From: Acidimicrobiaceae bacterium
GTDB lineage: Bacteria; Actinomycetota; Acidimicrobiia; Acidimicrobiales; RAAP-2
Assembly (NCBI GenBank): GCA_003133125.1
Contig: PKZO01000024.1
Span: 1,146-34,870, forward strand
DNA: 33,725 nt
Direction of reading: 5' to 3'
The notes below the pieces were generated by a model. The model ran no database searches. It saw only the letters and a list, made by a program, of their open reading frames with translations, and was not told the DNA's origin. The position numbers were made by a program, and so were the translations under genes. Positions 572 to 20,930 of this stretch are shown piece by piece (the stretch's first letter is position 1; the number at the start of each line of letters is the position of its first letter).

Positions 572-1924
572 CTAAAGCACCGAGCCCCAATCCAGCTCGT
601 CAAGAATCGCGGCAACGCGCTGGAGGAAGCGTGCCGCGTAGGCACCGTCGACCGCCCGGTGATCGAAGGTCAGGGCGAGCATGCCCTTGGAGTGAATTGC
701 GACCGACTCCTCCCCCTCGTCGTTGGTCACCACCGTGGGTCGCCGGGTGACGCCATCGGTCGAAAGGATGGCGACCTGTGGTTGATTGATCACCGCGCCA
801 GTGATCAGTGTTCCAAAGGGGCCCGGATTGGTGATGGTGAACGTGCCCCGCGCGTAGTCATCCACGCCCAATGTCGAGTCCCTCGCGCCCTTCGCCACGT
901 TGTTGATGGACTTGGCAAGGTCTCGAAGGTTGAGTTGGTCGGCCGACCTGATCACCGGCACGACGAGACCCTCGTTATTGAGATCGACCGCAATTCCAAG
1001 GTTGATCCTTCGATGCACGACCAACTCGTCATGACCCACCGACGCATTGAGGTAAGGGAATTCGCGCAGCGCCAAGAGGCTCGCCATGGCGTTAAAGGGC
1101 AGGTACGTGAGCGAAAATCCCTCTTCTTCCTTAAAGTTTGAACCGTCGCGTCGACGCACACGCTCGACTTGCTCGTAATCGACTTCTCGAACCATCAACG
1201 TGTGTGCCGAAGTGGCCTTCGAGCGCACCATGTGTTCGGCGGTGACCTTTCGAATCCTCGTGAAGGGCACGATCTCGTCGTCGTCAGCGCTCCGCTCGGG
1301 CTCCGGCTGACCCTGTGCAATGTGCTCTTCCACGTCGTGACGCGTGAGACGACCGTTAGGACCTGATGGCGCAATGGACGTCGCATCAAGCGAATGCTCT
1401 TCGAGGAGACGGCGAACGACGGGCGACTGTGTGCTCGACATTGGACTCGCGAGCGACGTACTTGCGACGTGGCGTTCGACGTCATCCTTGGTGATGCGCC
1501 CACTAGGCCCAGTGCCCGTCACCTCGGACGCGTCAAGTCCGTGCTGGGCCAACAATTTTCGCACCACCGGCGAAAGCGAAACCGAACCACTTGGCGCCAT
1601 TTTCACCGTGCCGTCAGCGCTCTGAGGCGCGACACGACCAGGAGCAGGCGAAGGGGCTGACGGAGGAGTCGAAGTGGGTGGTGCGTCGTTCTCACTCGTG
1701 ATCACCGCAAGCACCGTGCCGACATCGACTGTCTCACCCTCGGCGACGAGGATCGCCGACAACACGCCCGATGCCTGGGCTGGAATCTCGCTGTCCACTT
1801 TGTCAGTGGACACCTCGAATAATGGCTCGCCCTTAACTACCGCGTCGCCAGGTCGCTTGAACCACTTCGCCACCGTGCCTTCGGCGACGGTCTCGCCGAG
1901 TTGCGGCATCTTGACGTCGCTCAT
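572..1924 (-). CDS. 2-oxoacid/acetoin dehydrogenase E2 (dihydrolipoamide acyltransferase) with two E3-binding domains
   Basis: This 450-residue protein is the acyl-transferring core of a 2-oxoacid or acetoin dehydrogenase complex. Residues 1-77 form a lipoyl domain with the lipoylated lysine K42 in the TDKV motif. An Ala/Pro-rich linker follows. Two successive peripheral-subunit-binding domains lie at about 117-154 and 166-204, each with the VVR(K/R)LL...GPxGR(I/L)T..DVE pattern. The catalytic acyltransferase domain covers about 217-450 and ends with the active-site HRAVDG motif (H422, D426). Most E2 proteins carry a single subunit-binding domain. An AGGAAGGG site sits just upstream of the ATG. 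The gene is divergent from the E1 pair at 2079-4054. The substrate (acetoin, pyruvate or branched-chain oxoacid) cannot be fixed from sequence alone. Confidence 0.93.
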   Translation of the reverse strand: MSDVKMPQLGETVAEGTVAKWFKRPGDAVVKGEPLFEVSTDKVDSEIPAQASGVLSAILVAEGETVDVGTVLAVITSENDAPPTSTPPSAPSPAPGRVAPQSADGTVKMAPSGSVSLSPVVRKLLAQHGLDASEVTGTGPSGRITKDDVERHVASTSLASPMSSTQSPVVRRLLEEHSLDATSIAPSGPNGRLTRHDVEEHIAQGQPEPERSADDDEIVPFTRIRKVTAEHMVRSKATSAHTLMVREVDYEQVERVRRRDGSNFKEEEGFSLTYLPFNAMASLLALREFPYLNASVGHDELVVHRRINLGIAVDLNNEGLVVPVIRSADQLNLRDLAKSINNVAKGARDSTLGVDDYARGTFTITNPGPFGTLITGAVINQPQVAILSTDGVTRRPTVVTNDEGEESVAIHSKGMLALTFDHRAVDGAYAARFLQRVAAILDELDWGSVL

Positions 1925-1993: not shown

Positions 1994-2078
1994 TCTCTAT
2001 GAAACATAGGCGACCGAACCGACACCAGGTGGTGTGGCAGAGGTCGGCGCCGTGCGGTATGGAGTCATGAGGAGGGCA

Positions 2079-3089
2079 ATGGCAACGAAGGAAGCGAAGG
2101 CGCCGGCGACGCTGGATCTAGAGACGCGACTTCACATGTATCGCACCCAGGTGGCGCTTCGCCAATTCGAGACGAGAGCGTACGACCTCTTCTTAGAGAA
2201 CTACGTCAAGGGAACAAGCCACCTCTCGATCGGCCAAGAGGCGATCGCGGCGGGAGTCGCCGAAGCAATGCGTCCCACCGACTGGACCTTCGCCACCTAT
2301 CGCGGACACGCGCACACACTGGCGCGCGGTGTACCAATGACGCCCGTCTTCGCCGAACTCATGGGCCGCGCGAACGGTCTCATGGCCGGCAAGGGCGGAT
2401 CGATGCACCTGACGAGCGTCGAACACGGTGTCATGGGTTCGTACGCAATCATCGGCGCACACCTGCCGATCGCCTGTGGCGCCGCGTGGAGTGCACAGTA
2501 TCGCGGGACCGATCAGGTAGCGGTCTGCTTCTTTGGCGACGGCACCACCAATATCGGGGCATTCCACGAGGCACTCAACTTTGCCGTGATCTGGTCGTTG
2601 CCCGTGGTCTTTTGGTGCGAGAACAATCTCTGGATGGAGTACACGCGCACGAGCGAGGTAACCGCCGTCGTGAACCCCGCCGCCGACCGCGCCAGCGCCT
2701 ACGGACTCGAGTCGATCATCGTCGACGGCAACGACGCCGACGCTGTCTACCAAGTCGCCTGCGACGCCGTGGAGCTCGCGCGAGCGGGCGGCGGACCAAG
2801 TCTCATCGAAGCTAAGACGTACCGGCACGGTGGGCACTCACGTGCCGACCCTGGTAAGTATCGTCCCGACGAGGAGATCGCGGAGTGGATGCAGCGTGAC
2901 CCCCTTCCGCTCTATCGCACGCGACTTCTCGAGGCGGGCGTCGCCGAAGAGGAGCTCGCCGCAATCGACGAGTCGGTACGCCTCGAAGTGGAGTTGGCAA
3001 CCGAAGAAGCGAAGGCGGGTCCCATACCCGGCGAGGATCTCTTATTAAAGGATGTATGGGCTGACGGAGGTGCAGCATGGCGCAACTGA
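2079..3089 (+). CDS. 2-oxoacid/acetoin dehydrogenase E1 component, alpha subunit
   Basis: This is the thiamine-diphosphate-binding alpha subunit of a heterotetrameric E1, about 336 residues. The TPP motif runs from GDG (153-155) to NN (182-183), with the usual ~30-residue spacing. The N-terminal region carries the family pattern SHLSIGQEA and a TYRGHAH segment, and SMHLTS precedes the TPP site. I chose the ATG at 2079 because AGGAGGG (2070-2076) lies immediately before it, although the spacing is short. An ATG at 2067 and a GTG at 2034 are in frame. The gene overlaps the E1-beta start by 13 bases, so the two subunits are probably made from one message with coupled translation. E2 is divergent. 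Confidence 0.93.
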   Translation: MATKEAKAPATLDLETRLHMYRTQVALRQFETRAYDLFLENYVKGTSHLSIGQEAIAAGVAEAMRPTDWTFATYRGHAHTLARGVPMTPVFAELMGRANGLMAGKGGSMHLTSVEHGVMGSYAIIGAHLPIACGAAWSAQYRGTDQVAVCFFGDGTTNIGAFHEALNFAVIWSLPVVFWCENNLWMEYTRTSEVTAVVNPAADRASAYGLESIIVDGNDADAVYQVACDAVELARAGGGPSLIEAKTYRHGGHSRADPGKYRPDEEIAEWMQRDPLPLYRTRLLEAGVAEEELAAIDESVRLEVELATEEAKAGPIPGEDLLLKDVWADGGAAWRN

Positions 3090-4054
3090 CGTACCGCGAG
3101 GCAATCGCGAGGGGCATCGCCCAAGAGATGCGCCGCGACCCGTCCGTCGTGATGCTGGGCGAGGACGTGGGCGCGGCGGGCGGGGTCTTTAAAGGCACCG
3201 TGGGTCTGCTCGAGGAGTTCGGCGATGTACGCGTGCGTGACACGCCCATCAGTGAGCAGGCGATCCTCGGAGCCGCGATGGGTGCCGCCATGACGGGGCT
3301 GCGTCCGATCGCCGAGATCATGTTCGCCGACTTCTTCGCGGTCTGTTGGGACATCGTCGCCAACGAGATCGCCAAGAGTCGCTACATGACCAACGGTCAA
3401 CTGTCCTTTCCACTGGTGATCCGTTCGGGCAACGGAGGCGGTCTGCGTTTCGGCGCCCAGCATTCCCAGGCGGTCGAGAACTGGGCCATGATGATCCCCG
3501 GGCTCAAGGTCGTCGTTCCCGCGAACGCCCTCGACGTGGTGGGCCTCATGGCGGCGTCGGTGCGCGACAACGACCCGGTCATCTTCCTCGAGGCGAAGGG
3601 CCTCTACGCCACGAAGATGGAAGTGCCCGACGGCGAGATCGTCGACACCCTGGGCTCGGCGAAGGTCGTGCGAAAAGGAACCAACGCCACCATCGTCGCA
3701 CTGGGCATGATGGTGCCTCGAGCCCTCCAAGCGGCCGAGGAACTCGCCGCTAACGGCATCGACTGCACCGTGGTCGACGTTCGTTCGCTCGTACCCCTCG
3801 ACACCGCCACGATTCTGAGCGAAGTCTCCGCGACGGGACGACTCTTCACGGTCGAAGAGAACCCGAGGCTCTGCGGCTGGGGAGGCGAACTGGCTTCGAT
3901 CGTCGCCGAAGAGCTCTTCTATGACCTCGACGGGCCCATCGTGCGTATCACGACTCCGCACATCCCTCTGCCGGCGGCTGACGTGTTAGAGGATCTGGCG
4001 ATTCCGTCAGTCGAACGCATCGTCACGACGGTTCACAAGTCAATGAACTCCTAG
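3077..4054 (+). CDS. 2-oxoacid/acetoin dehydrogenase E1 component, beta subunit
   Basis: This 325-residue protein matches the transketolase-like beta subunit of E1 enzymes. An EDVGAAGG motif near residue 28 contributes to the TPP site, FADF and RSGNGGG segments lie in the middle, and the C-terminal domain contains TVVDVRSLVPLD and VEEN. It starts inside the end of the alpha-subunit gene, the usual E1 order. It converges on the beta-hydroxyacid dehydrogenase gene. No dihydrolipoamide dehydrogenase (E3) follows, so the complex presumably borrows an E3 encoded elsewhere. Substrate cannot be told apart between acetoin and 2-oxoacids by eye. Confidence 0.94.
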   Translation: MAQLTYREAIARGIAQEMRRDPSVVMLGEDVGAAGGVFKGTVGLLEEFGDVRVRDTPISEQAILGAAMGAAMTGLRPIAEIMFADFFAVCWDIVANEIAKSRYMTNGQLSFPLVIRSGNGGGLRFGAQHSQAVENWAMMIPGLKVVVPANALDVVGLMAASVRDNDPVIFLEAKGLYATKMEVPDGEIVDTLGSAKVVRKGTNATIVALGMMVPRALQAAEELAANGIDCTVVDVRSLVPLDTATILSEVSATGRLFTVEENPRLCGWGGELASIVAEELFYDLDGPIVRITTPHIPLPAADVLEDLAIPSVERIVTTVHKSMNS

Positions 4055-4071: not shown

Positions 4072-5001
4072 TCACGCCGAAGTAGGCGCAATATCAGGAT
4101 CGTGACCGTGGGCCCGTTGCAGACGAGGCAGCAACGCCGCGAAGTCGACGTCGGCGTAGCCATCGAGGGCGTCTTCGACCAGCGAGGAGACGAGCGCCAC
4201 CGTGGGCAAGGTCAACTCAGCCTCATCGGCCAGATCGAGCGCAAGACGCAAGTCCTTGGCGAGTAGCGCCGTAGTGAACGTCGCCGCGTAGTTACGCTCA
4301 TTAAGCCCTTCGGTCTTGTAGCGCACGAAGGGCGAACCCAGCACCGACTGGCCGAGCACGCCGAGGAACGTGGCGCGGTCGAGCCCGTAGCGCTCGGTGA
4401 GTAGCACGAGTTCAGCGAGCAGCTCGGTGGTGATCGCGAGGCCGGCGTTGATGGCGAGCTTCACCAGCCGCGACCGCTCGCCGTCGCCCACGTACAGCAC
4501 CGTCGGGCCAATCGCCGAGAGGAGTTCACCCGCGCGTTCGAATACCGGTTCGGGTCCCGACACCACCAACGTCAGATTGCCCGCCGCGAGCACGAGGGGG
4601 TTTCCACTCACGGGCGAGCGAAGATACGCCACGCCCACGCTCGACGCGGCGATGGCGATCTCCTCGGACACTTTGGGTGAGACCGTGGACATATCGACGA
4701 GAAGTCCGTCCTCCACTGGCGCGCTGAGCACACCCTCGGGCCCGCAGCACACCGTGCGTAGCGCGGCGTCGTCCGCGACGAAGGTGATCACGACCTGCAC
4801 GTGAGTCCATAACCCGACGAGCGTGGTGAGGAGATGGGCGCCTAATCCGTACAAGACCGAAAGGTCGCGAGATGACCGGTTCCAAACGAAGACCTCATAG
4901 TCCTGCTCGAGCAGCCTCGCCGCGAGCGCGCGACCCATATTGCCCATGCCGAGTACGCCAACCGTGGGCTTCGCGCTCGAAGTATTCAGACCTTCGACCA
5001 C
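4072..5001 (-). CDS. Beta-hydroxyacid dehydrogenase (3-hydroxyisobutyrate dehydrogenase / tartronate semialdehyde reductase family)
   Basis: This 309-residue NAD(P)-dependent enzyme interconverts a beta-hydroxyacid and its semialdehyde or ketone. The dinucleotide-binding GMGNMG motif is at residues 18-23. N41-R42 after the second strand is a pattern usually linked to NADP preference. The substrate signature SPVSGNP is at 129-135, and the catalytic lysine is K181 with N185 in KLAIN. The gene ends a minus-strand run and starts 20 bases after the XRE-cupin regulator stop, behind a GAAGAG ribosome site and a GTG start. Within the superfamily it could reduce tartronate semialdehyde, oxidise 3-hydroxyisobutyrate or act on another small acid; the locus suggests it handles a product of the neighbouring pathway. 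Confidence 0.88.
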   Translation of the reverse strand: MVEGLNTSSAKPTVGVLGMGNMGRALAARLLEQDYEVFVWNRSSRDLSVLYGLGAHLLTTLVGLWTHVQVVITFVADDAALRTVCCGPEGVLSAPVEDGLLVDMSTVSPKVSEEIAIAASSVGVAYLRSPVSGNPLVLAAGNLTLVVSGPEPVFERAGELLSAIGPTVLYVGDGERSRLVKLAINAGLAITTELLAELVLLTERYGLDRATFLGVLGQSVLGSPFVRYKTEGLNERNYAATFTTALLAKDLRLALDLADEAELTLPTVALVSSLVEDALDGYADVDFAALLPRLQRAHGHDPDIAPTSA

Positions 5002-5766: not shown

Positions 5767-6591
5767 TCACGGCTGATCATTGTGACCACCTTCGTCAAAC
5801 CAGATTGCCTCCACCGGCTCGTTACCGACGTTCGCCAGACGGTGAGGCGTGCTCGAGTCATAGGAGATCGCGTCGCCCGCTCTCATGAGGAAGGTCTCGA
5901 AGCCCAGTGTCACCTCGAGCAACCCGCGAAGGACGTAGCCGCACTCGGTACCTTCGTGGCGGATGAGCAGCCCTTCACTATTGGAACTTCCCCCCACGTC
6001 GTAACGCACAAAAACGAAATCGAAGTCGGCCTTCGATGTCGACGAGAGCCTCTCCCAGGTCACGCCAGAATCGAGAACGATGCGTCGTCGCTGCGAAGGC
6101 GACACGACGGGCGAACGACGCCCTCGCTCAGCGCGCGAGCGACCTTTCGGCGCCCCTTCGTCGGTCCCTTGAGTCTCGGCCGATCGAGCGAAAAGACTGG
6201 CGCTCTGGGACATCGCGCCACCCACTTCCTCAGTCGACTCAACCTCATGGACGGTTTCGGGCTCCACGTCGAAAACGTCGTCAATCGACATCTCGAGCGC
6301 CGTGCAGATGGCGTAGAGCGTCGCGACCGATGGTTGCGCCTTGCCGGTCTCGAGTTGTGAGATAAAAGACGCCGAGACGTTGAGGTCACGGGCGAACTGG
6401 CGTAGAGAGATGCCCAACGACTCGCGGCGAGCCCGCAGGCGTCGTCCCACCGCACCCGAACCGTTGTGCTCGCTCGCAACCGCCGACGGCGTTTGCTCTG
6501 GCGCCACGTCGCTCGCGGTGACCCCAGTAGCCGGGCGCTTTAGGCGAACGCGCTCGCCGGCGTCTCCCGAGGTTCGTCCCTTAACGGCCAT
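5767..6591 (-). CDS. XRE-family regulator with C-terminal cupin domain (second of a pair)
   Basis: This regulator has about 274 residues. After a ~65-residue charged, low-complexity N-terminal extension comes an XRE helix-turn-helix (GRRLRARRESLG...LRQFA...SASFISQLETGKAQPSVATLYAIC), then an acidic and Ser/Arg-rich linker, and a C-terminal cupin with RHEGTECGYVLRG and STPHRLAN. I placed the start at the ATG at 6591, after GAGAGGG; the frame stays open much further upstream, but that part overlaps the bicupin gene and looks like shadow. Layout matches the downstream regulator, yet the linker and extension differ clearly, so the pair is an old duplication or two recruits rather than a recent copy. 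They may read different ligands or form mixed dimers. Confidence 0.87.
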   Translation of the reverse strand: MAVKGRTSGDAGERVRLKRPATGVTASDVAPEQTPSAVASEHNGSGAVGRRLRARRESLGISLRQFARDLNVSASFISQLETGKAQPSVATLYAICTALEMSIDDVFDVEPETVHEVESTEEVGGAMSQSASLFARSAETQGTDEGAPKGRSRAERGRRSPVVSPSQRRRIVLDSGVTWERLSSTSKADFDFVFVRYDVGGSSNSEGLLIRHEGTECGYVLRGLLEVTLGFETFLMRAGDAISYDSSTPHRLANVGNEPVEAIWFDEGGHNDQP

Positions 6592-6667: not shown

Positions 6668-7573
6668 CTAACGCTCCCCGTGCAGTTTCTGGGCCAAATG
6701 CTCCCATTCACGACTGAAACGGTACGAGTGCTGTACGGGAGGTTGCGGGGCCTGTAGTTCGATCCAACGCACGAGCCCCTTGCTCCGGTTCTCGAAGCCG
6801 TGGTCGGCCCCGACCCCCGCCCACAGTACGTCGCCCGGATGCAGTACCAATTCATCGCCGTCAACCAAGGCGTGCACTTCGCCCTCGACGAAAACGTAGG
6901 TCTCTTCGAAGGGATGGTCGTGGGGGTGCGCAATCGCCGTTGGTTGGTAGTCGACGACGAACATGGTGTGCAACTGCGCTCCCACGCGTTGGTCAATGAG
7001 CATGCGCACCCCAATGCCGCTGTAAGCGAGCAGCGCGGTCGCCATGCTGGGCGAGGTCGTCGGCGCGTTCACGTCAGTGCCGCCCGCGAGAGCGCGCAGG
7101 TCCATCGACGCGGCGTCAAAGCGCACCGCGTGGTGATTGCGCGGATCACGGACGTCGGGTAGTTCGGCGTCGAACTCCTCCATCTTCTCCCTCGTGAAGA
7201 ACGTGTCCTGGCGCCGACCATCTTCGAGTTCGGAAGGCGAGTTCACGAGCAGCCAGCGAACCGGTTCGTCGAACGAGTGAAGACTGTAGGTCGTGCCAAT
7301 GGGGATCACGACGCAGTGATCCGTTGACAACAGCGTCGTCGCGCCCTGCATGGTCAGAGCGAGACGTCCCGAGAACACGTACATGCTCACCTCAAAGGAG
7401 TGCACGACGGGCTCAACGAAACCGCGCGGTGCTAGGTGACCAATGGATACACCCATATGGGGTGATCCGGTCGATCGGTTGATCAGTCGCTGTTCGGCGT
7501 AGTGCTCGCACGAACCCAGGTAGTGCAGTGGCGTGGTCGCCAACCCGTCGTCAATCTTAGTGACGTAGTACAT
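6668..7573 (-). CDS. Bicupin metalloprotein, ureidoglycine-aminohydrolase-like fold
   Basis: This 301-residue protein has two cupin halves. The C-terminal half holds the full metal-binding signature: HPHDHPFEETYVFVEG (the HxHxxxE(x)6G motif) followed by GDVLWAGVGADHGFEN. The N-terminal half (about 45-110) is recognisable but lacks most metal ligands. Two-cupin proteins of this size include (S)-ureidoglycine aminohydrolase (AllE/YlbA), various dioxygenases and isomerases, so the reaction is not settled. An AllE-like role would fit an N-containing substrate but is an inference from layout. The ribosome site GAGG lies just before the ATG. It sits between the SDR-fold gene and the twin regulators, all on the same strand. 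Confidence 0.75.
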   Translation of the reverse strand: MYYVTKIDDGLATTPLHYLGSCEHYAEQRLINRSTGSPHMGVSIGHLAPRGFVEPVVHSFEVSMYVFSGRLALTMQGATTLLSTDHCVVIPIGTTYSLHSFDEPVRWLLVNSPSELEDGRRQDTFFTREKMEEFDAELPDVRDPRNHHAVRFDAASMDLRALAGGTDVNAPTTSPSMATALLAYSGIGVRMLIDQRVGAQLHTMFVVDYQPTAIAHPHDHPFEETYVFVEGEVHALVDGDELVLHPGDVLWAGVGADHGFENRSKGLVRWIELQAPQPPVQHSYRFSREWEHLAQKLHGER

Positions 7574-7627: not shown

Positions 7628-8335
7628 TCATTTCAGGAGCCACCCACCATCCATGGCCAGGTTCACGCCGTTGACGCCAGTGTTGTCTAACAAGAACTGC
7701 ACCGAGTCGACAATCTCTTGCATGGTCACGAGGCGCCCGAGTGGTGTACGCGCGATGACGTTGCTGTTGTCCTTACCTTCCCAGAAAGGACTGTCACCGA
7801 TGATCCCCGGGTGCACGGCGTTCACGCGCACTGGCGCGAGTTCACTCGCGAGCGTGTGCACGAGTCCCATAACGCCACCGTTCACCGTAGATACGGTGGT
7901 CGAACCTGGGTACGGACGTTCCATGGCGAGCCCACCGAACAATACGATTGACGTCCGCAGCGTGAACCGGTCGTGCAGTACGTGAACGGTCTCGGTGTAG
8001 CCAACGAGCTTCAACGTGACGAGACGAATGGCTCCACGAATGTCGTAGTTGGCAACACTGTTCGCGTCGCGTTCGATCGCCGAGATAACGAGGTCGTCGA
8101 CCTCTTCGACGCTCGAAAGGGCGCTCGCAATAGACTCGGGATCGCTGAGGTCGAGCGCAAGCGGTGTCGTTCCCAGACCGATCTCGTGCGCGGCGGCCTG
8201 AGCGGAGTCCATTGTTCGACCGGTCAAGTACACGTGACCGCGTTGGGCGAGGGTCTTCGCGACTTGCATCCCAATGCCGGCGGTGCCGCCCACCACGACC
8301 GCGGTGCGCCCATCCTTCGTCTGCGACGTTGTCAC
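7628..8335 (-). CDS. SDR-fold protein lacking the catalytic Ser-Tyr-Lys
   Basis: This 235-residue protein has the short-chain dehydrogenase fold: a nucleotide-binding GGTAGIG loop (16-22), LDLSD after the third strand, and the C-terminal NAVHPGIIG and MDGGW segments. The active site is altered. Where classical enzymes read YxASK, this protein reads V148-STV-N152, and the catalytic Ser region reads LFGG. All three catalytic residues are therefore missing by alignment, so it may act as a binding or structural protein or use another chemistry. It starts with GTG after AGGGGG and opens the minus-strand run, divergent from the amidohydrolase gene across 341 bases. Confidence 0.85.
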   Translation of the reverse strand: MTTSQTKDGRTAVVVGGTAGIGMQVAKTLAQRGHVYLTGRTMDSAQAAAHEIGLGTTPLALDLSDPESIASALSSVEEVDDLVISAIERDANSVANYDIRGAIRLVTLKLVGYTETVHVLHDRFTLRTSIVLFGGLAMERPYPGSTTVSTVNGGVMGLVHTLASELAPVRVNAVHPGIIGDSPFWEGKDNSNVIARTPLGRLVTMQEIVDSVQFLLDNTGVNGVNLAMDGGWLLK

Positions 8336-8659: not shown

Positions 8660-8676
8660 TCGATTTGGGGGGAACA

Positions 8677-10155
8677 ATGAGCAAGGGTCCAGTGAGTTCG
8701 ACGGGAGCGTCACTCGAGAACGGCAGGCCGATCGTCTTTCGACATGGCCTGGTGCTGACGATGAACAACGCCACTGAGGTACTGCACGACGCCGACGTAC
8801 TGGTTGTCGACGGGGTCATCAGCGCCGTCGGTCCGCGACTCGAGGCGCCCAACGACGCACTCGAGATTGACGCGCGCGGCGGCATCATCATGCCCGGGAT
8901 GATCGACACGCACCGGCACATGTGGCAGACCGCGATGCGCGGCTACGGCGCGGACTGGACCCTCTCGCAATACTTCGTGTGGTACTACCTCCAGCACGGC
9001 AAGACCTTCCGTCCCCAAGACATCTACGCGGGCAACCTGCTCTCAGCAATCGAAGCCATCGACGCCGGCGTGACGACGACCGTGGACTGGTCCCATGGTC
9101 TACAGACCGTCGAGCACGCTGACGCGGCGGTCGACGCACTCGAGGAAGTACCGGGGCGCTTCGTCCTCGCGTACGGCAACATCCAGGCGGGCCCCTGGGA
9201 GTGGTCCGCCAGTCCCGAGTTCCGCGACTTTCACCGCCGACGCATCGACGGGCGCGGCGACATGCTCGGCTTCCAGATGGCCTTTGACGTCACGGGCGAT
9301 CCAGAATTCCCCGAGAAGGCGGCCTTCGAAGTGGCGCGCGAGCTGGGCGTGCCCGTCACCACCCACGCTGGCGTCTGGGGAGCGACCGGCGACGACAGCA
9401 TCCGTCTCATGCACGAGCACGGATTCATGAACTCCGACACGATCTACGTCCACGCGTCCTCACTTTCGGACGACTCCTACCAACGCATCGCCGCGACCGG
9501 TGGGTCCGCGTCGGTGTCGACCGAGAGTGAGGAGAGCGCCGGCCAGGGCTACCCTTCGTCGTGGAAGTTGCGTCAGTACGACATACCGGTGTCGATGTCC
9601 ATGGACACCAGCGTGTGGTTCAGCGGCGATCTCTTCGCCGCGATGCGCTCGACCGTGGGTGCGGACCGGGTACGCGAACACTTCGAGGCCCAGAACAAGG
9701 CTGAGACCGTCACCCACCTACAACTGCGTTGCGAGGAAGTGGTGAACTGGGCCACCCGCGGCGGTAGCAAGGCGCTCGGACTCGACGCCAAGATCGGCAG
9801 TCTCGAAGTGGGTAAGCGCGCAGACGTGGTGCTCCTTAAGAACGATGACTCGCCGGTCATGTTCCCCATCGTCAACCCCTACGGCCACGTGGTCTTCCAA
9901 GCGGGACGCGGCGACGTGCACACGGTCGTCATCGACGGACGCGTGGTCAAGCACGAGCACGCCCTCGTGGACTCGAGCCTCGCCAAGGCTCGCGAGTCGG
10001 TTAGCGCGACGGTTGAGTTTCTTCAATCCGAGTTGGGTGACGAGACCTGGCGTGAGGGCATGTACCCCGAAGTGCCCCAGCGCAAGATCCACGAGAACCC
10101 GTACACGTACACGACCTACGACGCGGGCGACGCGGCGTGGAAGAAGAACGACTAA
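8677..10155 (+). CDS. Metal-dependent amidohydrolase, TRZ/ATZ-cytosine deaminase-like
   Basis: This 492-residue enzyme of the amidohydrolase superfamily probably deaminates or hydrolyses a C-N bond in a ring or amide substrate. Metal ligands are visible in order: H79 and H81 in THRH after the first strand, the His of TTHAG, the His of YVHASS, and the Asp of SMDTS. The C-terminus re-forms the small beta-domain (GSLEVGKRADVVLL), typical of the TRZ/ATZ and guanine/8-oxoguanine deaminase group. The ATG at 8677 follows GGGGGGA; a TTG four codons upstream lies inside that site. The gene leads the plus-strand block with the ABC importer and M24 hydrolase. A substrate cannot be named from sequence. 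Confidence 0.88.
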   Translation: MSKGPVSSTGASLENGRPIVFRHGLVLTMNNATEVLHDADVLVVDGVISAVGPRLEAPNDALEIDARGGIIMPGMIDTHRHMWQTAMRGYGADWTLSQYFVWYYLQHGKTFRPQDIYAGNLLSAIEAIDAGVTTTVDWSHGLQTVEHADAAVDALEEVPGRFVLAYGNIQAGPWEWSASPEFRDFHRRRIDGRGDMLGFQMAFDVTGDPEFPEKAAFEVARELGVPVTTHAGVWGATGDDSIRLMHEHGFMNSDTIYVHASSLSDDSYQRIAATGGSASVSTESEESAGQGYPSSWKLRQYDIPVSMSMDTSVWFSGDLFAAMRSTVGADRVREHFEAQNKAETVTHLQLRCEEVVNWATRGGSKALGLDAKIGSLEVGKRADVVLLKNDDSPVMFPIVNPYGHVVFQAGRGDVHTVVIDGRVVKHEHALVDSSLAKARESVSATVEFLQSELGDETWREGMYPEVPQRKIHENPYTYTTYDAGDAAWKKND

Positions 10156-10327: not shown

Positions 10328-10449
10328 CAGAGAACAGTAAGCAGGCAGTTGGTAGGGGGGTTTCGCGGGGGATCTTGATCGAAGCACGTGTTCGTGATTG
10401 GCAGTACTGAACAACGTCGGTTTTGGATTTCGCCGCGAGGCACAACAAG

Positions 10450-10475
10450 GAGTCCGCGCAGAGCGCGCGTGACTC
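10450..10475 (+). promoter_or_regulatory. Leader hairpin just upstream of the binding-protein ribosome site
   Basis: GAGTC-CGCGC (10450-10459) pairs with GCGCG-T-GACTC (10465-10475), giving a 10-bp stem with a bulged T and an AGAGC loop. It ends five bases before the AGGGGG ribosome site (10481-10486). It may stabilise the message or tune translation; I do not recognise a riboswitch class. Confidence 0.35.
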
Positions 10476-10491
10476 GCTAAAGGGGGATTCA

Positions 10492-11511
10492 GTGGTAACA
10501 AAAGCATTGCTACGCAAGCCAAGCGTGTTCTTGTGCGCCGCGGCACTGACGTTGGTGGGCCTCACGGTTGCCAGCGCAAGTCCCGCTCAGGCCGCAACAC
10601 ACAGAACAATCAAAATCGCATTTCTGTCGTTTGCAGTGAACAATCCGTACGACGCACCAATGCTCGCAGCAGCTCAAACCACTGCGGCGGCTGACGGGGT
10701 GAAGTTGGTCGTCTTTGACGCGAACAACAGCCCGCAGACGCAGTACACCCAACTGCAGTCGGTGATCAATGGAGGCGGCTACCAGGGCATCATCACCCAG
10801 CCGATTGAGAACACCAACCTGATCCCGCTTGTGAAGCAAGCGATCAAGAAGAAGATCAAGGTCGTGAACATCGACCAGATCCTTGGTGCCAGTGCTTCGA
10901 CCGCAGCGGTGCAGGTGGCGGGGTTGTCAGGCAACGTCGTGTTCGTCCCGACAGCGATTGGTAAGACACTGGGTCAGCAGGCGGCACTCGCGTGCAAGAC
11001 CTTCACCACGTGCAACATTGGCTACCTGTACAACATCCAGGGATCGACGGTGGACACCGCGGTGCACTCGGCGTTCATCTCGGCGCTTGGTAGCGCGGGC
11101 ACGGTCTTGAACGACTCTGGTCAAACGTACTTCAACGTGCCCGACGGCCAGTCAAGCGTGGCGACCGAACTGACGGCTGACCCCAGCATCAACGTCATCG
11201 TGGCAGCGGACCAGGGCTGCGTGGGCGCACAGAACTACCTCACCAGCATCAACGAGTACAACACCGGCAAGGTGTTGCTCGTGTGTTGGGGCGCCAGTTA
11301 CGAGGCTCAGCAGGGCGTCGAAGCGGGCGGCTGGTTCTCTGACGCCGCTCAGGCCCCCGCGAGTGAAGGTCAGCTCGGAATCCAGGCCGTGGTAAAGGCC
11401 ATCAAGACAGGCAAGAACAGCGGAGCGCTGGACCCGGTCGCCTCAGAGCCGGACCACGGACTTCTCACGAAGTCTGACGCGAAGCAGTTCACGCCGCAGT
11501 GGACGGCCTAG
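10492..11511 (+). CDS. CUT2-type ABC transporter substrate-binding protein
   Basis: This 339-residue exported protein captures the imported solute and delivers it to the permease. The GTG start at 10492 follows AGGGGG and begins a classic signal peptide: basic KALLRK, a hydrophobic stretch and a likely cleavage after SPAQA. The mature part has the periplasmic-binding-protein type I (ribose-like) pattern: IAFLSFAVNNPYD at the start, VVNID in the first domain, IVAADQGCVGA in the second. Two nearby cysteines (LACKTFTTC) could form a disulfide. There is no lipobox cysteine at the cleavage site, unusual for a monoderm binding protein. The ligand is unknown; family ligands include sugars, nucleosides and autoinducer-like compounds. 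Confidence 0.9.
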   Translation: MVTKALLRKPSVFLCAAALTLVGLTVASASPAQAATHRTIKIAFLSFAVNNPYDAPMLAAAQTTAAADGVKLVVFDANNSPQTQYTQLQSVINGGGYQGIITQPIENTNLIPLVKQAIKKKIKVVNIDQILGASASTAAVQVAGLSGNVVFVPTAIGKTLGQQAALACKTFTTCNIGYLYNIQGSTVDTAVHSAFISALGSAGTVLNDSGQTYFNVPDGQSSVATELTADPSINVIVAADQGCVGAQNYLTSINEYNTGKVLLVCWGASYEAQQGVEAGGWFSDAAQAPASEGQLGIQAVVKAIKTGKNSGALDPVASEPDHGLLTKSDAKQFTPQWTA

Positions 11512-11572: not shown

Positions 11573-13114
11573 GTGACCGATGTTTCAAGAGAGGCAGTGC
11601 CCCGCCGCAACGCGACGGACGGTGACGTGCAAGTCGTCAACGTCTCGAAGCGCTTCGGCGGGGCGCCCGCCCTCGCCGAGGTCTCCGTCACGATCCGCCG
11701 AGGCGAGATCCACGCCCTGGTCGGTGAGAATGGCGCCGGAAAGTCGACGTTGGGCAAGATCATCTCGGGAGTGCACAGCCCCGACCTAGGCGAAATACTC
11801 GTAAACGGGGAATCAGTGAATTTTCGTTCGCCGCGCGACGCCATGGACCGCGGCATCGTCACCATTGCCCAAGAACTGGCGGTCGTTCCCTACCTGAGCG
11901 TCGAGGAGAACGTCTTTCTCGGCGCCGAGCCTCGACGGTGGGGCTTCGTACGTCGCCGCGAGATGCGACGCCGCTATAAAGAGCTCGTCAATCGGGTCGG
12001 CTTTCGCTTGCCGGCGAGCCAGATGGCGGGTTCTCTCGTCACCGCCGACCAGCAGAAGTTGGAAATCCTTCGCGCGCTCTCGCGCGACGCGTCAACGATC
12101 ATCATGGACGAGCCCTCGGCCGCCTTGTCGATGCACGAGGTCTACGCCCTGCACGGCGTGATCCGGTCGCTCACGGCGAGCGGCAGAACCGTCATCCTCA
12201 TTTCACACTTTCTCTCCGAAGTACTCGATCTCGCCGACACCATCACCATCTTGCGCGACGGTCGAGTCATTCGTAGCGGCCCGGCGAATCAGGAGACCGA
12301 GAACTCCTTGATCGAAGGCATGCTCGGCCGCTCACTCGGTCAGGCCTTTCCCGACAAACAATTGGCACCGAGCGAATCTCCGGTCCTGCTCGAGGTGAAC
12401 GAACTTTGCGCTCCGGGGGTGCACGACGCCTCGCTGCGCGTGCGCGCCGGCGAGATCGTCGGTCTGGCCGGCCTCGTTGGGTCAGGGCGAAGCGAGTTCG
12501 CCAGTGCACTCTTTGGCGCGTCCAAGGTGACTTCGGGCACCATCCTCATCGCCGGCAAGGACGTGACCCACCATGATCCCCACCAGTCGCTGCGCGAGGG
12601 CATCTCGTTGATCCCTGAGTCGCGTAAGGAACAAGGGCTACTCATGGGCCGCCCGATCTCGGAGAACGTGAGTCTCGCCAACCTCAACGTCTTGAGCCGC
12701 CTGGGTATCGTGTCGCCCACGCGAGAGCGAAACCGCGTCTCGATTGCCCTCGAGAATGTGCGCGTGAAAATGGCCAGCATGCGCACGCCCGTGAGTTCAC
12801 TCTCCGGGGGGAACCAGCAAAAGGTCCTCTTCGCGCGAACGACGCTCTGCGAGCCACGCGTGCTCATCGCCGACGAGCCCACCCGCGGCGTGGACGTGGG
12901 TTCCAAACGCATGATCTACGACGTGCTGGTCGAACAGGCGGCCGCCGGACTTGGCGTCGTGGTCATCTCCTCGGAACTAGAAGAAGTGCTGGGTCTCGCC
13001 CACCGGATCATCGTGATGCGCGCGGGACGATTCGTCGCTGAGTTGACCGGCGAGGCGATGACCCAACAAGCAGTGCTCGAGGCGGCTTTCGCCGAGACGG
13101 CCACCGCGCCCTAA
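11573..13114 (+). CDS. CUT2-type ABC transporter ATP-binding protein (two nucleotide-binding domains)
   Basis: This 513-residue protein powers import and resembles RbsA/XylG. Domain 1 (about 15-245) has a full Walker A (GENGAGKST) and Walker B (IIMDEPS), but a degenerate signature (ADQQKLE). Domain 2 (about 260-505) has the degenerate Walker A typical of the family (GLVGSGRSE), a full LSGGNQQK signature and a Walker B (LIADEPTRGVD). The GTG start lies 61 bases after the binding-protein stop, and the permease follows 23 bases downstream, so all three belong to one operon. Confidence 0.95.
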   Translation: MTDVSREAVPRRNATDGDVQVVNVSKRFGGAPALAEVSVTIRRGEIHALVGENGAGKSTLGKIISGVHSPDLGEILVNGESVNFRSPRDAMDRGIVTIAQELAVVPYLSVEENVFLGAEPRRWGFVRRREMRRRYKELVNRVGFRLPASQMAGSLVTADQQKLEILRALSRDASTIIMDEPSAALSMHEVYALHGVIRSLTASGRTVILISHFLSEVLDLADTITILRDGRVIRSGPANQETENSLIEGMLGRSLGQAFPDKQLAPSESPVLLEVNELCAPGVHDASLRVRAGEIVGLAGLVGSGRSEFASALFGASKVTSGTILIAGKDVTHHDPHQSLREGISLIPESRKEQGLLMGRPISENVSLANLNVLSRLGIVSPTRERNRVSIALENVRVKMASMRTPVSSLSGGNQQKVLFARTTLCEPRVLIADEPTRGVDVGSKRMIYDVLVEQAAAGLGVVVISSELEEVLGLAHRIIVMRAGRFVAELTGEAMTQQAVLEAAFAETATAP

Positions 13115-13137: not shown

Positions 13138-14142
13138 ATGACGGAAGCCTCTAATGGCGTGCTGAATCCGACGGAGCTCGACACCGCGAATTTCTCGTGG
13201 CGACGCTTCGGGGGCCTGTGGCGCACGACCGGGATCCTCATTCCCTTCCTCGTCCTCTTCATCACCCTCGCGATCGCCAATGGCCAATTCCTCACCCGCC
13301 AAAACCTCGTTGTCAACATCCTCTACCTGCAAGCCCCGATTCTGATCATCGCGGCGGCGGGCACCCTCGTGCTCATCGCCGGTGGTCTGGACCTCTCGGT
13401 GGCGGCGACGTTCGTCCTCGCCGAAGACGTCGCCGCGGGTGTGGCCCTGCACAGCAATCCCATATTCGCCGTCATCCTGGCCCTGCTCTGTGGAGCAGTG
13501 GTCGGACTGGTCAATGGCTTCGTGGTCGCCTATCTGCGCATCAACGCGTTGATCGCGACCCTCGCCATGTCCTTCGTGGTGGCGGGCATTGCCGAGGTGG
13601 CGACGAACAACACGTTCTATTCGCTCTTTGACCGTCCCTCACTCGGCAAGTTCGCGACCCAGGACTTCCTCGGTGCGCAGAGCGCAATTTGGATTGCCCT
13701 CGTGGTGGTGGTGATCCTCGGACTCACCCTCTGGCGTTCGACCTTCGGCCGTTACGTGTTCGCCGCGGGAGGCAACGCCGAGGCGGCCCGACTCGCCGGT
13801 GTGCGCGTCTCGCGCGTTCGCATCACGACCTTTGTGTTGAGTGGAACCGCCGCCGCGCTCGCGGGCGTGATCAGTCTCGCCCAGACACTCACGACCACGC
13901 CGTATTCGAACGAGAGCTCACTCGCCTTCACGGTCCTCGCGGGAATCGTGGTCGGTGGCACGTCCATCGTGGGTGGCGACGGGTCGGTCACTCGCACGGT
14001 GATCGGGACACTCTTCATCGCGTTGATTCAGAATGGCTTTGACTTGCTGCAATTCAATACGTTCTACATCCCACTGGTCACCGGCGTGATTCTGATCGTC
14101 GCGGTGTCACTGGACGTGTGGCTGCGCCAGCGCCGTCGATGA
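13138..14142 (+). CDS. CUT2-type ABC transporter permease
   Basis: This 334-residue inner-membrane protein is RbsC-like, with about eight to ten hydrophobic segments. The cytoplasmic loop after TLWRSTFGRYVFAAGGNAEAARLAGV is the conserved EAA-like motif that docks on the ATPase, and the GGTSIVGGDGSV segment after it is also typical. An AAAGG site precedes the ATG. It completes a three-gene importer with the binding protein and ATPase, and the M24 hydrolase follows 29 bases later. Confidence 0.95.
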   Translation: MTEASNGVLNPTELDTANFSWRRFGGLWRTTGILIPFLVLFITLAIANGQFLTRQNLVVNILYLQAPILIIAAAGTLVLIAGGLDLSVAATFVLAEDVAAGVALHSNPIFAVILALLCGAVVGLVNGFVVAYLRINALIATLAMSFVVAGIAEVATNNTFYSLFDRPSLGKFATQDFLGAQSAIWIALVVVVILGLTLWRSTFGRYVFAAGGNAEAARLAGVRVSRVRITTFVLSGTAAALAGVISLAQTLTTTPYSNESSLAFTVLAGIVVGGTSIVGGDGSVTRTVIGTLFIALIQNGFDLLQFNTFYIPLVTGVILIVAVSLDVWLRQRRR

Positions 14143-14171
14143 ACTAGGGAACTACAAGGAGAGGAAGCTTC

Positions 14172-15512
14172 ATGGGAATTCACACCAACGGAACGAACGC
14201 AGTCGACTGGGAAGCACGCGTCGACATGGCGCGTCTGCGTGGCAACCGACTAGACAAGTTGAAGGCCGAACTGGAGCAGTCCGACCTGGGGGCGTTGCTC
14301 ACCTTTGACTTCCACAACATCCGTTACATGACCGGCACGCACATCGGTACCTGGGCCATGGACAAGTTGATCCGCTTCGCGCTTCTTCCCCGAAGTGGTG
14401 AACCCATTGTCTGGGACTTCGGCTCGGCCGCGCGCCATCACCAGCTCTACAACCCTTGGTTGAGCGGCGTCCAGATGATGCCCGACGGTTCCCAAGCCCC
14501 CTACGAAGGCGCACGCGCGGGCATCTCCACGCTGCGCGGCGCGATACCTCCCGGCGCGGACCGCGCGGGATCGGTCGCCACCAAGGTGAAGGAGGTCCTT
14601 AGCCAATTTGGCCTCCAGAACGAGCCGGTAGGGGTGGACGTCATCGAGATGCCCGTGCTCAGCGCGTTCGCCAAAGAGGGCATCAGCCTGGTCGACGGAC
14701 AACAGGTCTTTCTCGCCGCACGGCGCATCAAGACCAGTGACGAGATCTCGCTACTCACCCAGGCGGTGTCGATGGTGGACGCCGCCTACGAAGACCTCTA
14801 CGACTTCCTTCGACCCGGCGTGCGAGAGAACGAGTGCGTCGCGCTCGTGAATAAGACGCTCTACGACCTGGGTTCAGAGCACGTCGAAGGTGTGAACGCC
14901 ATCTCGGGCGAGCGATGCTCCCCTCACCCGCACGTGTTCAGTGACCGGCTCATCCGACCGGGTGATCCGGCCTTCTTTGACATCCTTCACAGTTTCAATG
15001 GTTATCGCACGTGCTACTACCGCACCTTCGCGGTGGGAAGTGCCTCCTCCGCGCAGCGCGACGCCTACACCAAGTGCCGCGAACTCATCGATTCGGCCAT
15101 CGCCCTGGTCAAGCCCGGCGCGACCACGGCGGACATCGTCGCGGTCTGGCCGAGCGCCCAGGAGTTCGGCTTCGCGGACGAAGAGGCGGCCTTTGGCCTC
15201 CAGTACGGTCACGGCGTGGGCCTTTCGATCTGGGAGCGGCCGATCTTCAGTCGGATGATCTCCTTTGATCACCCCGAGGTCCTCGAAGAAGGTATGGTCT
15301 TCGCGCTCGAGACGTACTGGCCCGCCAAGGACGGCTGGTCGGCGGCGCGCATTGAAGAGGAAATGGTCGTGACCGCTGACGGGTGCGAGGTGATCACCAA
15401 ATTCCCCGCCGACGAATTACTCGTCGCTGGCAAGCGCTACTACTCAGCCGGTGGACCTCTCAACGGTCTTCGCGAGTCCCAGTCGAATCTGAACTCTCCA
15501 CCCGCCAACTGA
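14172..15512 (+). CDS. M24-family (pita-bread fold) hydrolase with altered metal site
   Basis: This 446-residue protein has a creatinase-type N-terminal domain (about 1-185) and a pita-bread C-terminal domain. The family includes aminopeptidase P, prolidase, creatinase, ectoine hydrolase and the DMSP lyase DddP. Of the five usual metal ligands, D270 (FFDIL), H347 (GHGVG), E380 (ALET) and E395 (RIEEE) are present. The second Asp, normally 11 residues after the first in GYxxDxTR, is replaced by C281 in GYRTCYYR. The enzyme therefore may hold one metal, bind it differently or work without, as creatinase does. An AAGGAGAGGAAG site precedes the ATG. Being last in the importer operon suggests it acts on the imported compound rather than peptides. 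Confidence 0.85.
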   Translation: MGIHTNGTNAVDWEARVDMARLRGNRLDKLKAELEQSDLGALLTFDFHNIRYMTGTHIGTWAMDKLIRFALLPRSGEPIVWDFGSAARHHQLYNPWLSGVQMMPDGSQAPYEGARAGISTLRGAIPPGADRAGSVATKVKEVLSQFGLQNEPVGVDVIEMPVLSAFAKEGISLVDGQQVFLAARRIKTSDEISLLTQAVSMVDAAYEDLYDFLRPGVRENECVALVNKTLYDLGSEHVEGVNAISGERCSPHPHVFSDRLIRPGDPAFFDILHSFNGYRTCYYRTFAVGSASSAQRDAYTKCRELIDSAIALVKPGATTADIVAVWPSAQEFGFADEEAAFGLQYGHGVGLSIWERPIFSRMISFDHPEVLEEGMVFALETYWPAKDGWSAARIEEEMVVTADGCEVITKFPADELLVAGKRYYSAGGPLNGLRESQSNLNSPPAN

Positions 15513-15555: not shown

Positions 15556-16155
15556 TCACAGGTCAAAACCCTGGTCGAGCGCGGCGAGGGATTCATCGAG
15601 CAAGCTGAGCAAGTCCCTTGACGGGTCTTCGGCCAGCGCGAACATCCCCGAGATGGCGATCCCCACGACCGCCCCCGCCAACGTCCGTACCTCGACGTCC
15701 TGCGGTGATCGCCCGCTGCGCTCGACGAGTTCACCCACCAGCAAGTCCATCGTGCCCGCCAGCTGGTCCAGTATTGCCGAACGCAGTTCGGGAACCGAGA
15801 GACAGAGACGCATCCGGTCCATCTGATCGTCGGCGTCTTGGGTTGATAACTGGCGAAAGGAATCACTGAACGCTCGGCGGAACGCGCTGATCGCACTGAG
15901 TTCCTTGGGTTGACGGCGGAAGGCCTCGACAATGACCGGATCGAAATCGTCGAAGAGCACGACGTCAGCTTTGGTCGGGAAGTAACGAAAGAACGTACTC
16001 TCAGAAACGTCGGCTTCTTCGATGATCTGTTGGACGGTGGTTGCGTCATAGCCCTGCTCTCGAAAGAGACGCAGTGCGAGCGTCTGGATCGCCGAGCGGG
16101 TCTTGGCCTTCTTGCGCTCACGAAGGCCCTGGGTCGCCTCGTTACTTGGTGCCAA
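15556..16155 (-). CDS. TetR-family transcriptional regulator
   Basis: This protein of about 199 residues has a TetR helix-turn-helix at about 14-62 (ATTVQQIIEEADVSESTFFRYFPTK) and a helical ligand-binding C-terminal domain. I chose the TTG start at 16155, preceded by GAGGGAAAG; it overlaps the exporter's end by 14 bases, so translation is probably coupled. The frame extends upstream to 16245, but that part reads as shadow of the exporter. It most likely represses its own operon with the exporter through the repeats at 17717-17750. Confidence 0.9.
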   Translation of the reverse strand: MAPSNEATQGLRERKKAKTRSAIQTLALRLFREQGYDATTVQQIIEEADVSESTFFRYFPTKADVVLFDDFDPVIVEAFRRQPKELSAISAFRRAFSDSFRQLSTQDADDQMDRMRLCLSVPELRSAILDQLAGTMDLLVGELVERSGRSPQDVEVRTLAGAVVGIAISGMFALAEDPSRDLLSLLDESLAALDQGFDL

Positions 16156-17695
16156 TGGTCTTTCCCTCTTCCTTGTTCCCAGTTTGGCGCAACTGCGGCG
16201 AGGAGTTCGTCTTAGGAAGAAAGAGCGCGGCCAGCAGTGCGCCAAGCAGGGCGATACCGCCCGAGACGAGCAGTGCCCGGTCCATGCCCGAAACGAAGGC
16301 CGCGCGCACTGAGACGAGCAGCGCCCTCGAGTGCAGTTCCTGGGCGACCGCGACTCCCCCGAAGACGCTCTGGCGAACGAGGCTCGCCGCGGTCGCGGAC
16401 AGACCCCTCAGGTCGAGGTGTGCGAGGTACCCGGCACTGAGGACGCTGCCGAGGATCGCGGTGCCGAGGGGAGCGCCGGTCTTGTTGACCGCCTGGAGGA
16501 CCGCGGAACCAACACCGCTGCGTTCCTCTTTCAGCTCAACGAGCGCCGCCGACGCCGAAGAGGTGACGGCAATGCCGACGCCCAGACCGAACACGGCCAT
16601 CCAACTCAACAAGAAGATCCCACTCGAGCTCGCACTCGTCGCCGAGCCAATGAACAGTCCCGCCGCCATGAGAACGAAGCCCGCGGCGGTGGCGACTTTG
16701 GCGCCCACCCATTGCACGAGTCGCGCCGTGGGCAACGCCCCCACGACCAGACCCCCGACGAGCGAGAGGAGGCGAAGGCCCGAACCAATGGGGTTGGTGC
16801 CCAGTACGCCCTGGAAGTACTGGGGCATGGTGAAGAGGGCCCCGAACATGGCGAGGACCACGAACGCCGCCAGTATGACGCCCCACGTGAACGACTTCGA
16901 TTCGAACAGCGTGAGGTCGAGCAAGGGCTCACCCGCGCTCTCGCGGGTGAGGCGCCGCTCGAGGGCGAAGAAACCGACCAGGACCACGAGACCCGTCGCG
17001 ATGAAGACAAGCGCCGACACGTTGTTCCAACCGTGCTGACCCGCTTCGATCAACCCGTACATCAACGCCACCAGTCCCGCGGCCGAGGTCAGCACGCCGA
17101 GAAGGTCGACGCGAGGGCGACGGACGAGACGCGACTCGGGAATGAGCGTCGCGCCGGCGATGAGACCAATCACGGCGACGGGCACGTTGATCAAGAACAC
17201 CCAACCCCACCAGTAGTGGGTGAGAAGCCATCCCCCGAGGATCGGTCCGAGGGGAAGCGAGAGGAAGTTCGCCGCTGACCACACGCCGACCGCCTTTGGT
17301 CGCTCCGCCTTGGAGAAAAGCACCGTGAGGGCGGCGATCGCCATCACGATGACTCCAGCCCCGGCCATCCCCATGAGCACGCGGGCCGCCATGAACTCTC
17401 CCACCGACGTCGAGTACCCCGACGCCGCCGACCCCAGGCCGAAGAAACCAAGGGAGATCAGCAGGACCTTCTTATGGCCGTAACGGTCACCGAGCAGACC
17501 CGCGGGCAACATGGAAGCCGCCAGCACGAGCAGATAGATAGAGGTGAACCACTGCAGATCAGACTCGGTTGCGTGAAGAGCCTTCGAGAGCGTTGGCAGC
17601 GCGACGCTGAGCACGGTGCCGTCCAAACCCACGGCGAGAACGGCCAGACTCACCGCACCTAGGGCCCACCACCGGCGATTTCCCGTAGTCTTCAC
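16142..17695 (-). CDS. MFS multidrug exporter, DHA2 family (14 TM)
   Basis: This 517-residue transporter is EmrB/QacA-like and probably exports drugs or toxic metabolites by proton exchange. Motif A is visible in GLLGDRYGHKK after the second helix, motif C in LSLPLGPILGGW at helix five, and the hydrophobic pattern fits 14 membrane spans. I chose the GTG at 17695 because AGAGGTGA lies five bases upstream; in-frame codons further upstream, to 17740, run into the presumed operator. Its end overlaps the TetR gene. The pair is a standard efflux-repressor operon and shows no direct link to the catabolic locus. Confidence 0.92.
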   Translation of the reverse strand: MKTTGNRRWWALGAVSLAVLAVGLDGTVLSVALPTLSKALHATESDLQWFTSIYLLVLAASMLPAGLLGDRYGHKKVLLISLGFFGLGSAASGYSTSVGEFMAARVLMGMAGAGVIVMAIAALTVLFSKAERPKAVGVWSAANFLSLPLGPILGGWLLTHYWWGWVFLINVPVAVIGLIAGATLIPESRLVRRPRVDLLGVLTSAAGLVALMYGLIEAGQHGWNNVSALVFIATGLVVLVGFFALERRLTRESAGEPLLDLTLFESKSFTWGVILAAFVVLAMFGALFTMPQYFQGVLGTNPIGSGLRLLSLVGGLVVGALPTARLVQWVGAKVATAAGFVLMAAGLFIGSATSASSSGIFLLSWMAVFGLGVGIAVTSSASAALVELKEERSGVGSAVLQAVNKTGAPLGTAILGSVLSAGYLAHLDLRGLSATAASLVRQSVFGGVAVAQELHSRALLVSVRAAFVSGMDRALLVSGGIALLGALLAALFLPKTNSSPQLRQTGNKEEGKTIGTK

Positions 17696-17716
17696 GATGG
17701 TCACCTCTTTTTGATA

Positions 17717-17750
17717 GTTACACTCAAAACATGGTAACACTCATATTACC
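17717..17750. promoter_or_regulatory. Operator-like repeats upstream of the exporter
   Basis: GTTACACTCA (17717-17726) and GTAACACTCA (17734-17743) are direct repeats 17 bp apart with one mismatch. GGTAA (17733-17737) and TTACC (17746-17750) form an inverted repeat spanning 18 bp, the size of many TetR operators. The cluster lies 22-55 bases upstream of the chosen start. No clean -35/-10 pair was identified. Confidence 0.45.
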
Positions 17751-20045: not shown

Positions 20046-20930
20046 CTACTTGCTGTAGCCGTACTTTCGAAGAAAGGCTCGCAGCGCGATTACGAAGCGC
20101 CGTCCACTGGGCTCGATCGGGCTCAACGCGCTATTCAAATGGCCCGCTCTCGCCTGCCCGGCGAGGAACGTGCTCACCACCGCGCCGTGTCCGAGCATGT
20201 CCTCGTCGGCGGCCCAGGCCGCTATGACGCCCACGGAGTCTTGGTAGTGAGTGGCCGCCTGCGCGTCAAAAGCCCTTCGCCACTGAGCGGCGTCCTTGGC
20301 TATCAGACTGGGAAAACTCCGGGTCACGTCTCGAAAGTAGTGGTGCGAGAAACTGAAGATTTGTATCGGCACGCCCGACGCGGCGTAGTCCGTGAATGCG
20401 TACGCGAAAGCGTCATTGGCACTCACGAAGTCCACTGCGCCATCGGCGCCGATTGAATCCATCTTCACGCCCGGGTCGCCAAAGTTCCGTTCAGTCTTCA
20501 GTACGGTTCTCGACGTCGCACCAAAGGAATACACCTGCTCGATGGAGCAACAGTGCGCTCCGCCGCTGTAGAGGTCCAGTACGACCGCCGGTTGCGCGTG
20601 AGCTTTCAGTCGCACTACGTGGACGACCTTCCGGCTCGCCGAAATGGTGTCGGGCCAGCACTCTTGCCCGCACCAGACCGAGTGCACCAATTCGTCGTAA
20701 AGCACGGCTCCCGAACGAGTAATCGTCAGGCGTGGGTGCAGCGCCTCGGGGTACGTGCCCGAATACGTAAACGTCGCGGTCACGCCCGCGAGCGATGCCG
20801 ACTGGGTGGCGCCCGCGGCACTTGTGACCGGTACGAAGGAGGCAACGAGAACCAGTACCAACGTTGCGAACGTCCCGAAGTGAGACGTGGCCCGCTGGGA
20901 AGGGCGAGTCGGGGCTATCGAGAACTTCAT
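20046..20930 (-). CDS. Secreted protein of unknown function
   Basis: This 294-residue protein begins at an ATG at 20930 with a basic N-terminus, a hydrophobic run (FGTFATLVLVLVASFV) and a likely signal-peptidase site near TSAAGA. The mature part has HSVWCGQECWP and LYSGGAHCC, four closely grouped cysteines that suggest disulfides, and a C-terminal ~70-residue helical segment. I do not recognise a named family. The frame continues upstream to 21083, but the signal peptide argues for the internal start. It converges on the PPK2 gene with 15 bases between the stops. Confidence 0.75.
   Translation of the reverse strand: MKFSIAPTRPSQRATSHFGTFATLVLVLVASFVPVTSAAGATQSASLAGVTATFTYSGTYPEALHPRLTITRSGAVLYDELVHSVWCGQECWPDTISASRKVVHVVRLKAHAQPAVVLDLYSGGAHCCSIEQVYSFGATSRTVLKTERNFGDPGVKMDSIGADGAVDFVSANDAFAYAFTDYAASGVPIQIFSFSHHYFRDVTRSFPSLIAKDAAQWRRAFDAQAATHYQDSVGVIAAWAADEDMLGHGAVVSTFLAGQARAGHLNSALSPIEPSGRRFVIALRAFLRKYGYSK

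Follow-up and report, generated by a model that had tools for sequence, protein, structure and literature searches.

M24 enzymes are the textbook example of a dinuclear site in which two carboxylates bridge the metals. What does such an enzyme do if the Asp that normally joins both metals is a Cys? This question is raised by a gene in a DNA stretch from an Acidimicrobiaceae bacterium (GCA_003133125.1, contig PKZO01000024.1, positions 1,146 to 34,870 of the forward strand). The whole stretch of 33,725 nucleotides was analysed and is called the window. The gene and the codons of its active-site residues are located as follows:

14172..15512, plus strand: Cys-type M24 (creatinase/prolidase fold) enzyme, 446 aa (ORF call, Pfam, alignment, structure comparison)
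14979..14981, plus strand: D270 codon, loose metal-site ligand, equivalent to Asp260 of E. coli aminopeptidase P (AMPP)
15012..15014, plus strand: C281 codon TGC, at the position of the bridging Asp (AMPP Asp271)
15018..15020, plus strand: Y283 codon, co-occurring with C281
15210..15212, plus strand: H347 codon, equivalent to AMPP His354, tight site
15231..15233, plus strand: W354 codon, at the AMPP His361 position
15309..15311, plus strand: E380 codon, equivalent to AMPP Glu383, tight site
15354..15356, plus strand: E395 codon, equivalent to AMPP Glu406, bridging

The M24 protein and its metal-ligand positions

A Shine-Dalgarno-like AAGGAGAGG precedes the 14172-15512 ORF at about 14156-14164; the start codon of the ORF lies 30 bases downstream of a permease stop codon. 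Its product matches Pfam Peptidase_M24 (PF00557; E=1.6e-38, 133 bits, cut-off 23) and is a full-length creatinase/prolidase-fold protein. In an NCBIfam search, every equivalog match scored below its own cut-off. The AlphaFold2 model, built with 33 homologues, has a mean pLDDT of 69 and a pTM of 0.71 and is weakest at residues 239-256 and 351-355 (pLDDT <50). Foldseek ranks DddP (4b28) as top match for this model. VIA-align yields a Z of 26.9 over 353 residues for the Xaa-Pro dipeptidase 4r60, a close value of 25.8 for DddP and about 25 each for creatinase and ectoine hydrolase. The predicted pita-bread fold is secure.

Searching with the M24 protein as query gave no further copy in its own genome and no viral homologue, and no promoter, terminator, Rfam RNA or repeat near the gene stood out above chance. 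Elsewhere in the window, a short single-domain M24-like ORF of 234 aa is located at 31059-31763 (-) (PF00557, E=6.8e-17). It apparently keeps both Asp with a spacing of 11, and its neighbours are a Puu-like set of amino-acid permease, HTH-cupin regulator and class-I glutamine amidotransferase.

The alignment to solved prolidases has no gap between D270 and C281, which correspond to the first and second Asp with a spacing of 11, and H347, E380 and E395 align with the remaining ligands. This bears out the earlier note, which had read four ligands and a Cys 11 residues after the first Asp from the letters. Of the five-ligand set D, D, H, E, E of dinuclear M24 metallopeptidases, four are present and the second Asp is Cys281. 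In AMPP from E. coli and P. aeruginosa, the tight site is composed of D271, H354, E383/384 and E406/408 and the loose site of D260, D271 and E406/408 (PMC5774706, PMC5723419). Since D271 belongs to both sites, C281 occupies the residue common to both metals, and the replaced Asp was correctly described as one that bridges them.

Two further active-site residues deviate from AMPP. In place of the second active-site His (AMPP His361), the M24 protein and its subgroup have Trp (W354), while a sister subgroup at 53-60% identity keeps the His at this position. The equivalent of AMPP His350 is L343. The core clade shows no variation at H252 (AMPP His243), at R393 (AMPP Arg404) or at any of the four ligands that remain. 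This means, with C281 and W354 the protein lacks two residues that define Xaa-Pro peptidases, and the rest of the scaffold is kept.

Conservation and origin of the Cys type

Residue 281 is Cys in all 128 homologue copies at at least 50% identity, none of which has Asp here. The codon is TGC in 105 copies and TGT in 23. As the codon varies synonymously and the amino acid does not change, position 281 appears to be under purifying selection. An isolated substitution or a sequencing error is ruled out by the 128/128 Cys and the two codons. The core clade, represented by 49 sampled rows, carries the motif GY(R/K)TCYYR and has a support of 100/100, so that the Cys defines a clade, a point the earlier note had proposed to check; close homologues with Asp, which the note had named as a refutation, did not turn up. 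The clade-wide variant within the known M24 superfamily is real.

When one genome per species was scanned, 474 related stretches came up, and the sequences of the best 80 were taken. Within the same phylum, about 27 of 296 sampled genomes have a copy at >50% identity. The family extends over Actinomycetota, plasmids of Rhodobacterales (54-56% identity) and haloarchaeal plasmids (31-34%). The directly read Roseobacter members and most of the directly read haloarchaeal members are Cys-type; L152, a haloarchaeal relative, has the Asp instead. D270, H347, E380, E395 and R393 are invariant across the core family and the haloarchaeal relatives, which suggests that purifying selection retains the geometry of the metal site. 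In the open literature, outside of which most subscription journals fall, no paper on the Cys-type clade or its operon was found.

For the origin of the Cys type, 86 sequences were compared, 64 rows with Cys and 22 with Asp, including distant relatives and DddP-type proteins. Tyr at position 283 is found in 64/64 Cys-type and 0/22 Asp-type rows; the latter have Ser, Gly, Val or Ala. In a careful tree, a single branch with a support of 82/89 divides Cys from Asp rows, and the labels need one change compared to 19.7 when shuffled. A quick tree without the motif columns requires two changes, although one is still compatible with its strongly supported branches. These trees make it likely, but do not prove, that the Cys types, the distant ones included, arose only once. 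In three distant Cys types from Actinomycetota genomes (L137, L141 and L143), D270 is replaced by Trp, Trp and Asn, respectively, and Cys-x-Tyr-Arg, His, Glu and Glu are all retained in spite of this loss. The alignment thus suggests that these proteins depend more on the tight site, or on the Cys as such, than on the loose site.

In addition, some contigs carry two M24 genes: L129 and L131 have a Cys-type and Asp-type pair about 4-13 kb apart, and L136 has two Asp-type genes within about 4-13 kb. L014 and L079 are MAGs titled 'Acidobacteria bacterium' and 'Bifidobacterium breve'. Their copies cluster with sequences from Acidimicrobiaceae or other actinobacteria, so these bins may be mislabelled or contaminated.

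Gene neighbourhood in the window and in relatives

In the window, the M24 gene is the last gene of an ABC operon encoding a binding protein, an ATPase and a permease, with an amidohydrolase gene ahead of the operon. The following genes are located upstream:

13138..14142, plus strand: ABC sugar-type permease (BPD_transp_2)
11573..13114, plus strand: ABC sugar-type ATPase (AraG/RbsA-like)
10423..11511, plus strand: periplasmic binding protein (Peripla_BP_4)
8665..10155, plus strand: amidohydrolase, triazine hydrolase/guanine deaminase type
7628..8335, minus strand: short-chain dehydrogenase (SDR)
6668..7573, minus strand: bicupin protein
5767..6480 (start approximate), minus strand: HTH-cupin regulator
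4072..5001, minus strand: dehydrogenase of the HIBADH/tartronate-semialdehyde-reductase family
3077..4054, plus strand: 2-oxoacid dehydrogenase E1 beta
2034..3089, plus strand: 2-oxoacid dehydrogenase E1 alpha
572..1924, minus strand: 2-oxoacid dehydrogenase E2 acyltransferase

The position in an importer operon, from which a small-molecule substrate had been proposed, is therefore confirmed and broadens to an importer/catabolic cluster. On the other side, at 15556-17740 (-), an MftR-like TetR regulator gene and the gene of a DHA2-type MFS efflux transporter lie side by side and converge with the M24 gene. Further downstream, the ORFs at 20046-21083 (-) and 23005-24894 (-), encoding 345 and 629 aa, have no Pfam match and may be spurious in this GC-rich DNA.

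The same neighbour genes recur in other loci in differing order. Of the neighbour classes counted in 49 long loci outside the genus of the window, HIBADH-type genes lead with 37 loci, followed by the ABC ATPase (33), an E1 of any kind (26), SDR (23), amidohydrolase (17) and aldehyde dehydrogenase (15). E1 alpha is located directly 3' of the M24 gene on the same strand in 27 of the 128 copies, many of which lie in short loci; Rhodobacterales plasmids are among the 27. On Roseobacter plasmids, ABC genes, SDR, M24, E1, E2 and a succinate-semialdehyde-type dehydrogenase form one block. In the haloarchaeal relative from Haloferax mediterranei, E1, HIBADH and aldehyde dehydrogenase genes adjoin the M24 copy. 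Many distant loci have short flanks, and the comparison of neighbours is weaker for it. No E1 was found next to Asp-type relatives, and none beside distant Cys-type loci except in one haloarchaeon. The E1 link thus appears to belong mainly to the core clade. On the Halorussus plasmids L149 and L150, a Cys-type M24 gene is found near genes for an EthD-domain protein and an LLM flavin-dependent oxidoreductase, not near E1.

Candidate reactions of the Cys-type enzyme

The reading we prefer, at an even chance of being right, is that of a Cys-defined M24 subfamily that acts in small-molecule catabolism instead of peptide trimming and uses a rebuilt Cys/His/Glu/Glu site as a hydrolase or lyase. It is directly supported by the fold, the ligand positions, the clade-wide Cys281/Tyr283, the loss of the second peptidase residue in the subgroup and the conserved catabolic neighbours. 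A bound metal is expected because the ligands are conserved and a small-molecule substrate because of the gene neighbours, and the thiolate argues for an altered metal preference or for one metal in place of two. The tight site would consist of Cys281, His347, Glu380 and Glu395 and would probably hold one thiolate-tolerant metal, such as Zn2+ or Fe2+. In that case, the loose site (D270/E395) would be weakened or serve proton transfer. The distant Cys types without D270 keep Cys/His/Glu/Glu, as they should if only the tight site counts in them. The ABC transporter would bring in the substrate, and the enzyme might hydrolyse or eliminate a bond either in this compound or in an intermediate formed early on. 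Its product could be oxidized by SDR, HIBADH-type and aldehyde dehydrogenases and finally be cleaved by the E1/E2 complex. The neighbour classes are compatible with many pathways, and the neighbours' best PDB and NCBIfam matches single out no particular substrate.

Creatinase catalysis needs no metal. From this, the earlier note had argued that the fold can work without metals and that a different reaction is plausible. Creatinase (PDB 1chm, 1kp0, 7yto) shares the fold and fulfils a catabolic, non-peptidase role on the same scaffold. Ectoine hydrolase DoeA/EutD (PDB 6twk, 6yo9) has the fold too and is a small-molecule hydrolase encoded in a catabolic operon. Accordingly, Cys281 could be a nucleophile or an acid/base in a metal-independent enzyme. 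Position 281 faces the active site in this fold, the active-site His of creatinase (equivalent to AMPP His243) is present as the core-invariant H252, and the three distant members without D270 keep Cys and the C-x-Y-R motif. However, a metal-free enzyme would not need H347, E380, E395 and, in the core clade, D270, all of which are invariant. Because these four ligands do not vary in the core clade, creatinase-like catalysis is less likely, and we consider it improbable. The invariant ligands together with His252 and Arg393 point to a metal site that was remodelled, not lost. Hence, of the creatinase analogy the different reaction remains plausible, whereas the metal-free mode is not supported. 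By these comparisons the protein is neither a creatinase, given the kept ligand set, nor an ectoine hydrolase, given NCBIfam scores of about 62 bits compared to cut-offs of 575-613; furthermore, the gene neighbours of ectoine hydrolase are unlike those of the Cys type.

Among characterised families, the DMSP lyase DddP (PDB 4b28, 4rzy, 4s00; NF043017) comes closest along the entire protein and tops both the profile search and the Foldseek search. It shares the two-domain architecture and the pita-bread fold and, as proposed here, has been recruited to small-molecule catabolism. A DddP-like lyase would eliminate a leaving group from a small carboxylate at a modified metal site. The structural similarity, almost as high as that to Xaa-Pro dipeptidase, speaks for this possibility, but over residues 18-417 the NCBIfam model of DddP gives 117.9 bits, far from its cut-off of 600, and a similarity of about 22-28% cannot fix the reaction. 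DddP has six metal ligands, D295, D297, D307, H371, E406 and E421 (PMC4108388). Two of them are lost: D307 corresponds to C281 and D297 to L272. The residue aligned with Asp377, the proposed catalytic base of DddP, is W354. Judged by the low score, the two lost ligands and the lost Asp377, the protein is not a DddP; a lyase of similar chemistry has the same slim likelihood as the metal-free enzyme.

The annotation 'Xaa-Pro peptidase family protein' would fit an ordinary dinuclear peptidase in which the Cys thiolate bridges the metals. Such bridging is possible in principle, and Xaa-Pro dipeptidase and AMPP (PDB 4r60, 3q6d, 1pv9, 1a16) share the fold, D270/H347/E380/E395, H252 and R393 with the M24 protein. 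They differ in the bridging Asp271, His361 and His350, which are Cys, Trp and Leu here, and the M24 gene is located in catabolic clusters. Moreover, E. coli AMPP Asp271 mutants were reported to be inactive (PMC10377022). We regard a conventional peptidase as very unlikely. An inactive pseudoenzyme with a structural or regulatory role, conceivable as one ligand is lost clade-wide and a second active-site residue in the subgroup of the window, can be practically dismissed, since the remaining ligands, H252 and R393 are invariant and the operon position is stable across phyla.

Among the more specific forms of the preferred small-molecule reading, we tentatively propose that a mononuclear thiolate Cys/His/Glu/Glu site with a Tyr two residues on performs a reaction new to the superfamily and opens an undescribed pathway whose last step is a dedicated 2-oxoacid dehydrogenase complex. 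Actinobacteria and roseobacters, and perhaps haloarchaea as well, would have this pathway. A cofactor formed by cross-linking Cys and Tyr is much less likely than this mononuclear thiolate. A conserved exchange of Asp for Cys across a large clade would illustrate how a dinuclear site can be rebuilt for a new reaction. Many genes annotated as 'Xaa-Pro peptidase' are probably misnamed, judged from the 474 related stretches in one genome collection and the best 80 taken from them. The conserved operon would offer a direct route to the substrate and, hence, to a new catabolic pathway.
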